Made by a program: the position numbers and the translations under genes. From positions 1 through 37,943 of the IMG/VR virus record IMGVR_UViG_3300019776_000558: 37,943 nucleotides of DNA; one strand, 5' to 3'. Position 1 is the first letter of the stretch, and every line of letters begins with the position of its first letter. Positions 6,690-33,686 of the stretch are shown piece after piece. The notes beneath the pieces are model-generated. The model was given only the letters and a program-made list of their open reading frames with translations, had not been told where the DNA came from and ran no database searches. The DNA comes from a virus.

Positions 6690-6728
6690 AAGATGAGGGT
6701 GCCAGGATGACAGGATTTGTCCCGAATT
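6690..6728 (-). promoter_or_regulatory. Two-block late element, copy 1 (AATTCGGGAC-N23-CATCTT)
   Basis: Read on the minus strand, AATTCGGGAC (6728-6719) is followed by exactly 23 bases and CATCTT (6695-6690). It lies between the tail-fibre stop and the start at 6656. The same two blocks with the same spacing occur at 12542-12580, 23577-23615 and, with CACCTT, at 28968-29006. All are in the same orientation relative to late transcription. Confidence 0.7.
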
Positions 6729-12541: not shown

Positions 12542-12580
12542 AAGATGATCCCCCTACGCGCGCGCGGGGAGTCCTGAATT
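12542..12580 (-). promoter_or_regulatory. Two-block late element, copy 2 (AATTCAGGAC-N23-CATCTT)
   Basis: On the minus strand AATTCAGGAC (12580-12571), 23 bases, then CATCTT (12547-12542), 6 bases before the tip-protein ATG. The 23-base spacer contains CCCC-GCGCGCGCGTA-GGGG, a possible hairpin. The TAA stop of the upstream lipoprotein gene overlaps the first bases of the element. Confidence 0.75.
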
Positions 12581-14332: not shown

Positions 14333-14350
14333 GTCCCTGCAAGCAGGGAC
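14333..14350. promoter_or_regulatory. Perfect dyad GTCCCTGC-AA-GCAGGGAC upstream of the DinD-like gene
   Basis: An 8-bp perfect inverted repeat with a 2-base centre lies in the 180-bp gap 14244-14423, ahead of the DinD-like gene. No U-tract follows on either strand, so it looks like an operator rather than a terminator. Its right arm and flank, AGGGACAGCC, match the repeats at 29051-29351. I see nothing else clear in the gap. Confidence 0.5.
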
Positions 14351-23576: not shown

Positions 23577-23615
23577 AAGATGGGGGCACGAAGGTCTCCG
23601 AAAATGTCCTGAATT
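23577..23615 (-). promoter_or_regulatory. Two-block late element, copy 3 (AATTCAGGAC-N23-CATCTT)
   Basis: On the minus strand AATTCAGGAC (23615-23606), exactly 23 bases, CATCTT (23582-23577), then 22 bases to the scaffold ATG. The CATCTT lies in the loop of a TGCCC/GGGCA hairpin. The TAA of the upstream 71-aa gene forms the 5' edge of the element. Confidence 0.75.
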
Positions 23616-27241: not shown

Positions 27242-28471
27242 TTACCTCCGGATCTGCGCGGTGGTGGCTGCGGTCGGCTTGAACACGTTGAAGCACTCCC
27301 AGGCCGTCGAGCAGGCATCCACCTGGTCGTCGTGCTGGGTGCCGGGGAAGGACAGGAGCTCATCGAGGAAGGCGTCCGAGATGCCAGGCACCACGTGCAC
27401 CATGCCTTGCTCGAACCGGGCCGCAAGCGGGAAGAAGCGCGTGAGCTTGTCGCGCCCTCCCGGCTTGATGCCGCGCACCGGAAGCGTCGTGGTCCGCAGG
27501 AGCTCCTGCACCGCAGCGGCCTGGTACTGGACCTGCTCGATTCCGACCACGGAAGGAGACCAGCGCGAGGCCTCGGCCTGGATCATCTCCATGGACTCCC
27601 GGAACCCCATGCGGGCCCGGCGCACCGAGAGGATCCACACCTCCCCCGTCTGGCGATGCCGCCCCAGGGTCGCGACCGCCGTCCAGTCGGCCGTCTCCTT
27701 GGTTGAGATGGCGAGGTCCACGCCCACGACGATTTCCAGCTGGGAAAGCGGCGGAGGCTGGGTGAAGCGCAGCTGAGAGCGCTTGACCAGACCACCCTCG
27801 AAGTCGACGAACTCGGCCAGGTACTCCTGCCGGAAGACCAGCTCAGGGAGCTCCAGACGTGCAGCCTCGATCTCGTCCGGGGATAGGTAGGGGTTCGTGA
27901 CGCTGGGCATCCGCCACGACATCCATTCCCCCGAGTCCTGTTGCCCGCGGTCGAACAGCTCCCGAAAGAACGCTGCGCCGTCGTGCAGCGCCCTGGGCTT
28001 GGGTGTAGACGGGAACCAGGCGTCTCCCTGATAGTCCGAGAGGGTTGGGCGGATGGACTGCTCCCAAAGGGATCGCAGCTTGGGAACCATCGCCGCCTCA
28101 TCGATCACGACCCTTCGGTATGCACGGGATCGGGCTGGATCCGGAATGTCGAGCGTCCAGAACTCCAGAACGCCGCCGGTGATGAGCTCCAGCCGTTTCT
28201 GCTGGCTGTCCCGCCGTCGAGTCACAGGCGCCAAAGCCCTCTCCACGCGGCTCCAGGTCTCGTCGAGGATCTTGTAAGTCGGAGCGAACCAACCAACCGG
28301 GAAGCCCTCCAGAGCGGGCTGGGCGAACTCCCAGGTGCAGAACGCCGTCTTGCCGAACCGGCGCCCCAGGCAGGGGAGGTTGAACCGCCTCCGCTCTGCA
28401 TGGAGGATCTTCTGTCCATCATGCCAGACGGGAGGGCGAACCTTGATGCGGCGCTTACTGGCGACGGCCAA
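27242..28471 (-). CDS. Terminase large subunit, 409 aa
   Basis: The ATPase half has Walker A LGRRFGKT (35-42) and Walker B VVIDEAA (121-127). The nuclease half has the first Asp in VVGVDLAIS (Asp252), Glu312 in GIEQVQ and a HDDQVDA cluster (381-385). These are the RNase-H-like nuclease residues of large terminases. It pumps and cuts phage DNA. The start is a TTG at 28471 with GGGGGGA upstream; it overlaps the small subunit by 17 bases. No better ATG exists in frame. Confidence 0.92.
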   Translation of the reverse strand: MAVASKRRIKVRPPVWHDGQKILHAERRRFNLPCLGRRFGKTAFCTWEFAQPALEGFPVGWFAPTYKILDETWSRVERALAPVTRRRDSQQKRLELITGGVLEFWTLDIPDPARSRAYRRVVIDEAAMVPKLRSLWEQSIRPTLSDYQGDAWFPSTPKPRALHDGAAFFRELFDRGQQDSGEWMSWRMPSVTNPYLSPDEIEAARLELPELVFRQEYLAEFVDFEGGLVKRSQLRFTQPPPLSQLEIVVGVDLAISTKETADWTAVATLGRHRQTGEVWILSVRRARMGFRESMEMIQAEASRWSPSVVGIEQVQYQAAAVQELLRTTTLPVRGIKPGGRDKLTRFFPLAARFEQGMVHVVPGISDAFLDELLSFPGTQHDDQVDACSTAWECFNVFKPTAATTAQIRR

Positions 28472-28961
28472 CGACGTCCCCCCACTCGATCACAACCTCG
28501 TCACCCTCATCCTCGCGCTCCTCGAACATGCCCAGGTGGCGCCCCAAAAGCTCGAGGGCCTTGACCTTGTCGAAGCGCTTGAGCTTGATCGACCCTCCGT
28601 GCTGGGTGACCGTCTGGGAGACCTCCGCCACCTGCGCTGCCTCGTCGTCGGTCAGGGTCTCCGAGTTGATCAAGTCCACCCCATTGGGGCCCCAGGTCAT
28701 CACCTTCCGAGGATCTCCGAAGGCGACTCGTGCGAGCTCCTGGAGGACTCGCTCCCGGGTGATCTGGGCCCCGAGTGCGCGGGTCTTGGTTGCCGAGGCG
28801 ACAGCTTCCTGAACCTTCGCATACGTGAGCAGTCGGCTTGCAACCTGCGTGGCTGCCTTCGGGCTGTAGCCGGCTCTGATTGCAGCTTGCGTTGCGTTGA
28901 GATCGATCAGGTACTCCTGAACGAACCTCTTCTGCTTGGGAGAAAGACCGGCCGCGACCAT
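28455..28961 (-). CDS. Terminase small subunit (Terminase_2/XtmA family), 168 aa
   Basis: The N-terminal part is a textbook Terminase_2 DNA-binding domain: LSPKQKRFVQEYLIDLNATQ (residues 6-25), then AAIRAGYSPKAA. The middle has ERVLQELARVAFGDPRKV and the end KALELLGRHLGMFEE. It recognises the packaging site and feeds DNA to the large subunit. It is the first gene of the late leftward arm and begins six bases after the proximal block of late element copy 4. Confidence 0.92.
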   Translation of the reverse strand: MVAAGLSPKQKRFVQEYLIDLNATQAAIRAGYSPKAATQVASRLLTYAKVQEAVASATKTRALGAQITRERVLQELARVAFGDPRKVMTWGPNGVDLINSETLTDDEAAQVAEVSQTVTQHGGSIKLKRFDKVKALELLGRHLGMFEEREDEGDEVVIEWGDVVGRRQ

Positions 28962-28967
28962 GAGGAG

Positions 28968-29006
28968 AAGGTGCCGAGGCGGGCGTTTCGAGTGATGTCC
29001 TGAATT
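28968..29006 (-). promoter_or_regulatory. Two-block late element, copy 4 (AATTCAGGAC-N23-CACCTT)
   Basis: On the minus strand AATTCAGGAC (29006-28997), exactly 23 bases, then CACCTT (28973-28968), one base different from the other copies, and six bases to the terminase ATG. This copy lies at the head of the entire late arm. Confidence 0.7.
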
Positions 29007-29013
29007 TTCGAGA

Positions 29014-29351
29014 TTGGGACAGAATTCGGAGCGAAAGTTTCAGAACTCAATAGGGACGGTAGGGACAGCCAAACCAGAGCAAAAGTTTTGCGAAAACAGT
29101 TAGGGACAGCGGGACACACATGACCAAGCATTCATATCTGTCCCTATTGTCCCATATTGTCCCTATCTCGAAAAACGGCAGATAGGGACAGCTAAGTCCC
29201 GATGAAATAAGGGATCGCGCATGGTGTCCCTATTGTCCCTATTCTTTTCCTATGGCCTAGTACGTGTGCGCGCATACCTACGCGCGTACATGTGCACGCA
29301 CACACATGAGAGAGAGAGGAAGTTGATAGGGACGTTGAGGACATAGGGACA
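29014..29351. repeat. Cluster of about 13 ATAGGGACA-type repeats in both orientations
   Basis: Forward copies of TAGGGAC(A/G) begin at 29051, 29060, 29101, 29183, 29327 and 29344, with weaker GGGACA cores at 29014 and 29111. Reverse copies (TGTCCCTA) begin at 29139, 29158, 29225 and 29234, with an imperfect one at 29148. Neighbouring copies are spaced 9 or 10 bases, about one helical turn. The cluster lies between the divergent late and early arms, which suggests repressor/stoperator binding sites or replication iterons. Confidence 0.8.
29261..29308. other. Alternating purine-pyrimidine tract with possible Z-DNA potential
   Basis: Bases 29261-29277 and 29279-29308 alternate pyrimidine and purine almost without error (CG, CA and TG steps). 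A (GA)n run follows at 29308-29319. Such tracts melt or flip to Z-DNA under supercoiling. It sits inside the repeat cluster. Confidence 0.6.
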
Positions 29352-29436
29352 GCAGCTCTCGAAGAACTCCCTTGCCATCCGAGCTTCGCGGAGAGAAATT
29401 CAAGAAAGAGCGCATTTCATGTAGTCGCAAAATTGC

Positions 29437-29465
29437 TTGCGCCTTGCGATTTTAGCGGCTACAAT
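29437..29465 (+). promoter_or_regulatory. Sigma70-like promoter for the early rightward arm
   Basis: TTGCGC (29437-29442), a 17-base spacer, then TACAAT (29460-29465), with A/T-rich sequence directly after. Transcription would start near 29472 and reach the ATG at 29510, which has TGGAGG in front of it. Confidence 0.65.
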
Positions 29466-29471
29466 AAATAT

Positions 29472-29489
29472 GAGGCTGGCGCCGGCCTC
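29472..29489. promoter_or_regulatory. 18-bp near-perfect dyad at the predicted early start site (operator candidate)
   Basis: The two halves GAGGCTGGC and GCCGGCCTC are complementary at all but one position. The dyad overlaps the expected transcription start of the promoter at 29437-29465, so a bound protein would block it. The protein is unknown; the gene directly downstream encodes a DNA-binding protein and may control itself. Confidence 0.55.
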
Positions 29490-29509
29490 GCAAACCGCTG
29501 GAGGCATCC

Positions 29510-29809
29510 ATGCCTGACGAGAAGCCGAAGAGGCCACGCGGCCGCCCTGCATTGGGGGACGCGAAGCTCAAACCCATTCCTGTTCGATTCGATTCCATCG
29601 ACGGAGCTGCCCTGAAGGTGGCCGCAACGGAAGACGGGATCAGCGATGCGGAGTGGATCCGGCGAGTCGTCCACAAGGCGCTGGGTGCCAGAACCCCATT
29701 GCAAGGCGACCCCATATGCTCTTCGATGATTCCCTCCTCCTCACCGACTACCGATCCTACCAAGAAGCTTCAGGACTCCAAGCCTGTTCGATCTACCAAG
29801 CCCAAGTGA
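29510..29809 (+). CDS. AT-hook plus ribbon-helix-helix-like DNA-binding protein, 99 aa
   Basis: The N-terminus has KRPRGRPALG, an AT-hook core (RGRP). It is followed by a strand-helix-helix segment (PIPVRFDSIDGAALKVAATE, then ISDAEWIRRVVHKAL) typical of ribbon-helix-helix regulators. The last about 30 residues are a polar Ser/Pro/Lys tail. It is the first early gene, behind a promoter and dyad. It overlaps the integrase gene by 94 bases in another frame. Candidate roles are autoregulator, recombination directionality factor or hub-repeat binder. Confidence 0.7.
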   Translation: MPDEKPKRPRGRPALGDAKLKPIPVRFDSIDGAALKVAATEDGISDAEWIRRVVHKALGARTPLQGDPICSSMIPSSSPTTDPTKKLQDSKPVRSTKPK

Positions 29810-31048: not shown

Positions 31049-31428
31049 GCACGCTTGAGCAGCTGTCGTTATTTGACGGCATCCGCCGCCGCGGCAGAAA
31101 GACCGAAAAGCCGCTCGGCTGCCCGACCAGCATCTGGGCCACCATCCAGAAGCGCCAGCAGCGTGGCAAGCCCGGGTGGACGGAGCACGACATCCTCGAG
31201 CTTGTCCGCAAGCACGCGAACGAGCCGATCGGGAAGGTACGCAAGCGCAAGCCCGAGCCCGAGCCCCCGCCGCAGATCGTGATCGCCCTGGTCGAGACCA
31301 TCGCATACCCCAAGGGGACCTGCTCCCCCATGACTGAACGCATGATCCAGGAGGGGAAGATCCCCGGCATCACCTGGGACCCCGATCGCGGAGGCGTCCG
31401 CAAAGCCCATGTACGGAGACTCGCGTGA
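31045..31428 (+). CDS. QLSLF clamp-motif protein, 127 aa
   Basis: The N-terminus is MSTLEQLSLFDG. QLSLF at residues 6-10 is an exact bacterial beta-clamp-binding pentapeptide. The remainder is basic with a WTEHDILELVRKHANEP helix and a Pro-rich linker (KPEPEPPPQ). It is cotranslated with the primase-helicase (the next start is a GTG overlapping the stop). It may recruit or modulate the host sliding clamp during phage replication. The main domain is not recognised. Confidence 0.65.
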   Translation: MSTLEQLSLFDGIRRRGRKTEKPLGCPTSIWATIQKRQQRGKPGWTEHDILELVRKHANEPIGKVRKRKPEPEPPPQIVIALVETIAYPKGTCSPMTERMIQEGKIPGITWDPDRGGVRKAHVRRLA

Positions 31429-33686
31429 TCCTTCCCCCCCTTGCGCTGGCTCCCATGCCTGTCGAGCTGGCGATCCCTGTCGCATATGCCGACCACGTCA
31501 AGGTCACCGACTACACGTCGACCCGCACCGTGGCATGGGGGAGCATCGTCAACTCCGCCCACGGCACCTACCCCTCCAAGGACGCGGCACCACTGTGGAG
31601 CCCCGTATCCCTGCTGGAAGGCCACACCGCCCGGAAAGCATCCTCCATCGCATCCTTGCATGCCCTGGTCGTGGATATCGATCACGGTGCCGCCTGGGAT
31701 GACGTCCTATGCGGGTTGCCCGATCTCACCTGGTGGGCCTACACGACCCACAGCCACACGGACCTCGAGCACCGTTTCCGCATCGTCCTTCCTCTGGCTC
31801 GGCCGGTGCCGGCAGCCCAGTGGAAAGCCGCGTGGCTCGCCGGCATGCAGGGCCTGGGAATCGAGAAGTTCGACAAGGCCTGCAACGACCCCTGCCGCAT
31901 CTACTACATGCCCAGCCACGCGCCCGAGGCCCCATGGGAGATGCTGTCGCAGGACGGCGCCCTCCTGGACCTGCTCGGCCTGCTGGAGTCCCTCCCTGCC
32001 CCGGTGGCGCCCACCAGCACCCCGACGGCGCCCCGCGGCCCAAGGCCAGCCGGCAAGGGCGACTACAAGACCCTGGACCTCGAGGCCTGGGCGGCATCGA
32101 ACGGAGCCAAGCCCGTCCGCGAACAGGGCGGCGAGGGCAAGATCTGGATCGAGTGCCCCTGGAAGTCCGAGCACACCGGCGGCCTGCAGGGCCCCAAGGA
32201 CACCTACCTGCTCGACAAGGGCGATGGCTGGCCGATCTTCCGTTGCGCGCACTCCCACTGCCGGGACCGCGGCACGCACGCAATCCTTGAACGCTGGACC
32301 AATGCCGACGAGCACTGCGCTCGCGAGTACGCCCCGCCGGCACGCCTGAAGGCCCCGGCATCCGCCCCGATCGAAGATGACCAGGAAGAAGACGAGATCG
32401 ATTGGCCGGTGCGCACCATCGTGAAGTCGACCGGCGAAGTCAAGGTCCCTGGATGCGAGGCGAACGCTCGCGAGTGGATGACCCACACCCATGCGGGGAA
32501 GATCGCCTACAACGAACTGACCGGGGAGCTGGAGCTCTCCGGAGAACCCGTGACAGATTCTGTCACGAGCCAGCTGCTGATCCGCCTGCAGACCCTGACC
32601 CAGTCCGTCTTCCAGCTTCGCCACATCGAGGGAGCGATCCGCGCCCTGGTCGAAGATCCCCGCACCCGCAGGTATCACCCTGTCCGGGAGTACCTGGAAA
32701 GCCTGCCTCCGCACGACGAGTCCATGCCGGTGATCTCCGAGCTGATCGGGACCGGCGTGATCGAGCTCCAACCCGAGGCGGACGTGGACCTGTGCCAGGA
32801 GTTCCTGCTTCGCTTCTTCGTGGGCGCCGTCGCACGCCAGTTCGAGCCCGGCTGCAAGCACGACTGCGCCCTGATCTTCCAGGGTCCCCAGGGCCTGGGA
32901 AAGTCGACCTTCTTCCGGGCCATTGTCCCGCAGGAGCGCTGGTTCAGCGACTCCATGGGGGACCTCGAGGAGAAGGACTCGCGCCTGGTCCTTTCCCGCG
33001 CTTGGATCTTCGAATGGTCCGAGCTCGAGAGCGTGCGCCGCTCGAACATGGGCGCCGTGAAGGCCTTCCTCTCGGCTCAGGACGACGACGTCCGCGCGCC
33101 CTACGCCAGGCAGTCGGTGTACCGCCGGCGCACGTGCGTGATCGTGGGTTCCACCAACGAAGACCAGTTCATCGTGGACCCGACCGGCGGCCGGCGCTTC
33201 TGGGTCGTGCCGGTGCTCTCGATCGATCGCGTCGAAGTCAAGCGCTACCGAGACAAGCTCTGGGCGGAGGCCGTTCACATCTACCGCACCCAGTGGGCGG
33301 ACATCGAGCTCGCGCGCCGGCCGGTGCTGCCGCCCTGGGCGCTCAGCGCCGAAGCCGAGATGGCCCAGCGCCGGGACAACGAGTCCCGCACGGCCCTCGA
33401 CCCCTGGGAAAGCGCCATCGCGTCCTGGCTCCCCACGAACCGCCGCCTGGTCAACCAGGGGAACGACGGAGCGGAGACCACTGTCGAGGAAATCCTCTCC
33501 AAGTGCCTGGACATCCCAAAGGCCTCGCACGGCCGCTCCCACCAGATCCGCGTCGGGCAGATCCTGCTCCAGCTGGGCTGGAAGCGCACTCGCCTGCGTG
33601 AGCAAGGGGAACGCCGGTACGTGTACCGCCTCGACCCTCAATCGACCGAAGCAACGGCGCCCGAAGCGCCCGAGCTGCGCTTCTGA
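31425..33686 (+). CDS. Primase-helicase (PrimPol-like N-terminus, VapE-type helicase), 753 aa
   Basis: The N-terminal region has DID (84-86) in LHALVVDIDHG and HRFRIVLPLARPV, as in archaeo-eukaryotic-type primases. A zinc-ribbon-like set follows (Cys244, His250, Cys274, Cys279). The C-terminal half is a VapE/SF3-like ATPase: Walker A GPQGLGKST (487-495), a Walker-B-like WIFEWSELE, and GSTNEDQFIVDPTGGRRFW. It would synthesise primers and unwind DNA at the phage origin. It starts with GTG overlapping the previous stop. Confidence 0.85.
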   Translation: MILPPLALAPMPVELAIPVAYADHVKVTDYTSTRTVAWGSIVNSAHGTYPSKDAAPLWSPVSLLEGHTARKASSIASLHALVVDIDHGAAWDDVLCGLPDLTWWAYTTHSHTDLEHRFRIVLPLARPVPAAQWKAAWLAGMQGLGIEKFDKACNDPCRIYYMPSHAPEAPWEMLSQDGALLDLLGLLESLPAPVAPTSTPTAPRGPRPAGKGDYKTLDLEAWAASNGAKPVREQGGEGKIWIECPWKSEHTGGLQGPKDTYLLDKGDGWPIFRCAHSHCRDRGTHAILERWTNADEHCAREYAPPARLKAPASAPIEDDQEEDEIDWPVRTIVKSTGEVKVPGCEANAREWMTHTHAGKIAYNELTGELELSGEPVTDSVTSQLLIRLQTLTQSVFQLRHIEGAIRALVEDPRTRRYHPVREYLESLPPHDESMPVISELIGTGVIELQPEADVDLCQEFLLRFFVGAVARQFEPGCKHDCALIFQGPQGLGKSTFFRAIVPQERWFSDSMGDLEEKDSRLVLSRAWIFEWSELESVRRSNMGAVKAFLSAQDDDVRAPYARQSVYRRRTCVIVGSTNEDQFIVDPTGGRRFWVVPVLSIDRVEVKRYRDKLWAEAVHIYRTQWADIELARRPVLPPWALSAEAEMAQRRDNESRTALDPWESAIASWLPTNRRLVNQGNDGAETTVEEILSKCLDIPKASHGRSHQIRVGQILLQLGWKRTRLREQGERRYVYRLDPQSTEATAPEAPELRF

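Follow-up and report, generated by a model that had tools for sequence, protein, structure and literature searches.

A repeat array between divergent arms

The window (the whole 37,943-nucleotide stretch of viral DNA that was analysed) has two divergent arms, late on the minus strand and early on the plus strand, which meet at an intergenic hub of 548 bp. The hub lies between the gene for the terminase small subunit (TerS; 28455-28961, minus strand; PF03592, E 2e-38), the first gene of the late arm, and a gene (29510-29809, plus strand) for a 99-residue AT-hook or ribbon-helix-helix (RHH)-like protein, whose RHH assignment was made by eye only and which had no match in Pfam or PHROGs. The left arm also carries the terminase large subunit (TerL), assigned via phage relatives, and the right arm codes for an integrase, a VapE primase-helicase, an exonuclease and a VRR nuclease. 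The VapE-type protein (753 residues; 31425-33686, plus strand) matched PF05272 (E 1e-63), the DNA helicase family phrog_256 (E 2.5e-81) and the profile of 7pds, the structure of PriRep1 with dsDNA (E 3e-72). We propose it as the initiator that would bind the repeats of the hub, with the RHH-like protein and TerS as rival binders.

An earlier note on this DNA had described the hub as free of genes and as carrying about 13 repeats in both orientations, several of them in tandem, and both statements were borne out. We identified no plausible gene in the 548 bp and located an array at 29013-29351 (no strand assigned) with ten exact copies of TAGGGAC and 13 9-mers within two mismatches of ATAGGGACA that keep the GGAC core intact, the weak site ATCGGGACT at 29195 (minus) included. 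A more diverged copy (TATGGGACA at 29148, minus) raises the number to about 14. Many sites follow each other in tandem at steps of 8-10 bp (29050/29059; 29139/29148/29158; 29225/29234; 29326/29335/29343). The centre of the array is a left-pointing pair of two perfect ATAGGGACA sites at a 9-bp step (29225-29242, minus) and a right-pointing set composed of ATAGGGACG, the degenerate TTGAGGACA and ATAGGGACA at 8-9-bp steps (29326-29351, plus), which flank a spacer of 83 bp (29243-29325, no strand) that is a candidate melting region. Outside this core are a left-pointing triplet (ATAGGGACA, TATGGGACA, ATAGGGACA; 9-10-bp steps; 29139-29166, minus), a lone right-pointing copy in the interval between triplet and inner pair (29182-29190, plus) and outer right-pointing copies at 29013, 29050, 29059, 29100 and 29108 (29013-29116, plus). 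The AT fraction is 0.47 in the spacer, 0.37 in the window and 0.49 in the hub as a whole, and relatives have spacers of similar length. Inside the spacer lie, side by side, two runs of alternating purine/pyrimidine (29260-29277, 18 bp; 29279-29308, 30 bp) that are longer than any others in the window, and CG-rich alternating stretches occupy the corresponding place in the hubs of two related loci, L280 and L281. A scan of the hub for sigma-70 promoters found none, and GC skew did not switch cleanly at the hub.

The abundance of the repeat is specific to the hub. TAGGGACR occurs ten times in the whole window (0.93 expected), always at 29051-29351. Within the hub, TAGGGAC was observed 10 times versus 0.04 per dinucleotide shuffle of the hub (maximum 1) and GGGACA 11 times versus 0.19. 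Because TAGGGAC is absent from the rest of the window (2.0 expected) and GGGACA is at chance level there (25 observed, 28.4 expected), the array is local and does not belong to a genome-wide set. The earlier note had judged the repeats too many for a simple operator and likened them to iterons or to mycobacteriophage-like stoperators, with a single protein acting across the genome through a shared GGGACA core. The first part of this interpretation and the comparison with iterons agree with our counts; the stoperators and the genome-wide protein do not. Stoperators of mycobacteriophages are scattered along the genome. A repressor regulon of that type would share with the hub its many copies of one short asymmetric site, and the GGACA core does recur in late promoter-like elements, but every TAGGGAC is confined to one 340-bp array and we regard this explanation as extremely unlikely.

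The late elements themselves are real, as the earlier note had it, and are best described as promoter-like, having only GGAC(A) in common with the repeats. AATTC(A/G)GGAC(A/T) has four sites in the window (0.67 expected), all on the minus strand and upstream of minus-strand late genes (6718-6728, 12570-12580, 23605-23615 and 28996-29006), and an ATCTT block follows some 20-30 bases later in at least three copies. The last site, AATTCAGGACA (28996-29006, minus), is at the left end of the hub, upstream of TerS, and is not an iteron. These elements are likely to be a phage-specific late promoter, separate from the iterons. A dyad in a gap between minus-strand genes (GTCCCTGCAAGCAGGGAC, 14333-14350), which the earlier note had grouped with the repeats, is a perfect 8-bp inverted repeat (GTCCCTGC-AA-GCAGGGAC) that lacks the TAGGGAC word.

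Iteron arrays and replication genes in other replicons

The exact 17-mer TGTCCCTATTGTCCCTA matched 14 viral contigs in IMG/VR, most of which carry a cluster of GGGACA in 500 bp. The array often starts only a few bases from the end of a replication gene. This gene codes for VapE in six of the TGTCCCTATTGTCCCTA contigs, for D5/DUF5906 in others and for DUF3987 in L014. In L003, the array is about 100 bases off a Toprim-AAA_25 gene. Using a bipartite pattern of two left-pointing words, 82-112 bp and one right-pointing word, we retrieved 11 viral and 10 bacterial or archaeal records that range from 31 to 64% GC and span several phyla, including Planctomycetes, Rhizobium, Enterococcus, Schinkia, Chloroflexi and a Nitrososphaerales assembly. 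The recurrent geometry is a left-pointing pair, a spacer of about 65-120 bp and a right-pointing pair, often followed by a single left-pointing site and a right-pointing set. No primase-helicase was recognised in the short stretch examined around the TAGGGACA arrays of L004, L019, L021, L022, L027 and L029. Four of these arrays are on bacterial or archaeal contigs (L021, L027, L029 and L022), with FliP, VasI, proteasome-like or tail genes nearby. Searching phages for the array with blastn gave no match, and none of the papers listed by a literature search for TAGGGACA was relevant.

Because TAGGGACA arrays also adjoin RecA-type helicases (L003 and L014), word and helicase family are not related one-to-one. 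This observation leaves room for a separate small phage initiator (RepC-like) that reads the iterons of the origin and recruits VapE as the helicase, as would be expected if the same word is to serve VapE, D5, DUF3987 and AAA_25 proteins. Nevertheless, we found no small protein family common to all TAGGGACA loci, the annotation of the minimal Microcystis plasmid described below lists no proteins but VapE and a small hypothetical one, and both the modelled winged helix at the VapE C-terminus and the precedent of SaPI Rep/Cch2 (PMC7581432) speak for DNA recognition by the helicase itself. We therefore consider a separate initiator unlikely. More tentatively, the two-set geometry of TAGGGACA might be an origin code used across phyla by replicons with unrelated helicases (SF3 VapE or D5; RecA-type DUF3987 or Toprim-AAA_25). 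Recognition would then be an exchangeable module that outlives its helicase, and origins could move with their geometry kept; we rate this scenario as possible though doubtful.

VapE relatives that lack TAGGGACA have other 8-9-bp words at the corresponding place, as in P4, APSE-2, 2638A and a Microcystis plasmid. A profile search recovered 80 VapE loci and needed alignments as the query, a single VapE sequence having found no viral relatives; likewise, a DUF3987 protein query matched only itself. Not one of the 80 loci had a TAGGGAC cluster. Yet an 8-mer was present at five or more copies in the 480 bp 3' of vapE in 15 of 74 loci, versus 5 of 1,387 control windows, and the enriched words were TAGGAACA, GTAGGGCA, AGGTTGGGACA, GGTTGGAC and AGGTTGGC. 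Array words include AAGGGACG/AAGGCACG in Staphylococcus phage 2638A, GGTTGTTAC in APSE-2, GGGGGCAT in bIL312, GGGACAACC in Lederberg, CTGCAACA in FutureBee and AGACAACCT in YeP4. Alteromonas phage PB15 has a GGTTCAC array 3' of a gene for a helicase related to Toprim-AAA_25. The simplest replicon is the Microcystis plasmid p2-NIES88 (L292; 3,117 bp), in which nine copies of AGGTAGGG with the same geometry and an AT-rich centre lie 3' of vapE. Because vapE is its only recognisable gene and is followed by the iteron layout, the origin of p2-NIES88 is very probably at the AGGTAGGG array, making the plasmid a ready minimal model replicon. Two other cyanobacterial plasmids have clusters within the 3' part of vapE and not after the gene (CTACTCA in L293, 3300-4000; TAGAACA in L294, 2700-3500), and their VapE proteins have an extended C-terminus.

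The loci also bear on the two neighbours of the hub as binders. RHH proteins often bind short tandem repeats. This habit, together with the start of the RHH gene about 160 bp to the right of the array and the presence of an RHH-like gene beside the hubs of L280 and L281, would suit an operator or centromere in which the adjacent protein (29510) binds the 9-bp tandem repeats cooperatively for repression of its own gene or for partition. The array is not, however, conserved together with the RHH gene: the 99-residue protein had no tblastn relative at E 1e-4 in the other fetched loci, other TAGGGACA arrays included, and elsewhere the same layout is seen 3' of helicase genes in replicons that have no RHH-like neighbour in their records. 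Moreover, the RHH gene of L280 and L281 has start-proximal repeats of its own. They consist of CGTGCGCACGAA and the palindromes CGTCATGACG/CGTCCGGACG (L280, 6120-6192; L281, 1205-1278), are distinct from the iterons and are likely to be the operator of that gene. A packaging site (pac or cos) bound by TerS would agree with the position of the hub next to TerS, with the terminase genes that adjoin several TAGGGACA arrays (L004 and L019) and with the comparison of the window and L280, in which both the TerS N-terminus and the repeat word differ. Against it, P4 and phages without an adjacent terminase have the array 3' of their replication gene, another array is present in a 3.1-kb plasmid that has no terminase, and the word moves from AGGTTGGTG to AGGTTGGGAC between L280 and L281, whose TerS proteins are 79% identical. 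Because arrays follow replication genes, even in a terminase-free replicon, both explanations are weakened, and we consider the RHH operator improbable and the packaging site very improbable. Sites for attP arms were also considered for the array and set lower. The earlier note had put forward the RHH/AT-hook protein, a DinD-like protein, a 71-residue protein and host RepA/DnaA as binders without listing VapE. We judge them less likely than VapE because the array accompanies primase-helicase genes, while neither the RHH nor the 71-residue protein had a relative in any other fetched locus.

In L280, TerL is 87% identical to that of the window and the gene order is the same, whereas VapE is only 38-42% identical. 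The L280 hub, at the same position, has GAGGTTGG words and no TAGGGAC, yet it preserves the layout: a left triplet, one right-pointing site in the place of the lone copy of the window, 48 bp, a left pair, 90 bp and a right pair, the last two intervals being 43 and 92 bp in the window. As in the window, the array is not directly 3' of vapE. The comparison suggests an origin whose position and spacing can be kept when the iteron word changes. The TerS N-terminus and the RHH gene differ as well, so the word swap alone cannot single out VapE as the reader. Despite the similarity of TerL, the TerS proteins of the window and L280 (6460) have in common only the C-terminal segment EVVI(E/D)WG.VVGRR, and a swap of the DNA-binding part of TerS is possible.

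The predicted VapE winged helix and the iteron word

An AlphaFold2 model of the C-terminal 134 residues of VapE yielded a confident winged helix (block-mean pLDDT 86-97). On the basis of this model, of conserved columns and of the association with iterons, we propose the domain at about residues 682-738 (33468-33638, plus strand) as the part of VapE that would read the DNA. The modelled recognition helix (704-716) carries R709 and G711, and the wing strands (719-736) carry R721 in the first of them. VapE combines in this way a helicase (PF05272, 7pds) with a C-terminal domain predicted to bind DNA. An alignment of 84 residues of the model to the C-terminus of 7pds scored Z 6.1, which does not exceed the scores of unrelated winged helices, and Foldseek returned no PDB match below E 0.001, the best being generic winged helices.

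Among 90 close VapE proteins, R721 went with TAGG flanks and K721 with TTGG flanks (Mann-Whitney p 4e-5), an effect with no comparable counterpart in an in-gene control. On a tree built without the winged-helix domain, five supported independent pairs gave 4.4 concordant versus 0.1 opposite changes (control, 1.2 versus 1.1), and the tree-corrected R/K721 covariation had a median p of 0.125, which is above 0.05. When iteron spectrum was compared with winged-helix similarity in a partial Mantel test, the correlation was weak, with a partial r of 0.11 below 70% core identity and nil below 55%. Many helicase and primase columns split the GGGAC and GTTGG classes equally well; because such column-wise separation is confounded by phylogeny, we relied on the within-family and tree-paired tests alone. 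Within the limits set by phylogeny, these sequence comparisons are suggestive of an iteron class that tracks residue 721 of the winged helix, and they provide a residue-level prediction (R/K721, R709) for the iteron read by each VapE.

A candidate origin and its known counterparts

We consider it likely that the hub is the replication origin of the phage, or a main one, with iterons bound by VapE (31425-33686) in the manner of P4, SaPI and PICI elements. Each ATAGGGACA site would be bound by the C-terminal winged helix of VapE, and the left- and right-pointing sets astride the 83-bp spacer could each seed a helicase ring. The two rings may then melt the spacer and load bidirectional forks, as an analogy with SaPI Rep and P4 alpha would have it. 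With the array placed between the early (plus) and late (minus) arms, which diverge from it, bound VapE could also influence their promoters. The array is about 2.1 kb upstream of vapE and the window has no iteron array 3' of the gene, in contrast to the many relatives in which the array is directly 3' of the helicase gene. We therefore describe it as a variant of the SaPI/PICI/P4-type iteron origin, and the best reading is that the origin was displaced from the rep gene to the intergenic region between early and late genes in a full-length phage. The predicted origin and its initiator are testable, and they would serve a large, poorly characterised phage group whose VapE is still named after virulence.

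Related protein architectures are known from pRN1 ORF904 and phages of the BPP-1/BIP-1 type, which combine a prim-pol, an SF3 helicase and a winged helix with an origin close to the gene for replication (PMC4234260). What has been proposed as the origin in these cases is a long stem-loop and not a set of iterons. P4 is an established case of the iteron type. Its alpha protein binds the repeats with a winged helix (PMC4234260), and the type I repeats GGTGAACAG, as annotated, follow each other at 9-bp steps in crr, the region directly 3' of alpha. Like the hub, P4 crr/ori has type I repeats of 8-9 bp in both orientations at 9-11-bp steps, but alpha has a bacterial-type (Toprim) primase domain and P4 has both crr and an ori away from the 3' site of alpha, whereas a single array was seen here. 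In PICIs, two sets of iterons around an AT-rich region immediately 3' of rep sustain plasmid maintenance (PMC6092414), and SaPI Rep, apparently in the form of two hexamers, uses its C-terminal domain for binding (PMC7581432). SaPIbov1, SaPI1, EfCIV583 and EcCICFT073 share with the hub the short iterons, the two sets flanking a centre and an initiator that is a helicase, here by prediction. They differ from it in that the array described here is found in a tailed phage that has a terminase and structural genes of its own, lies about 2.1 kb upstream of vapE instead of 3' of rep, and has a spacer rich in alternating purine/pyrimidine and only slightly higher in AT than the genome. The loci point to SaPI/PICI/P4-type iteron origins in full-length phages and in a plasmid, which suggests that origins of the PICI type are not confined to satellites.
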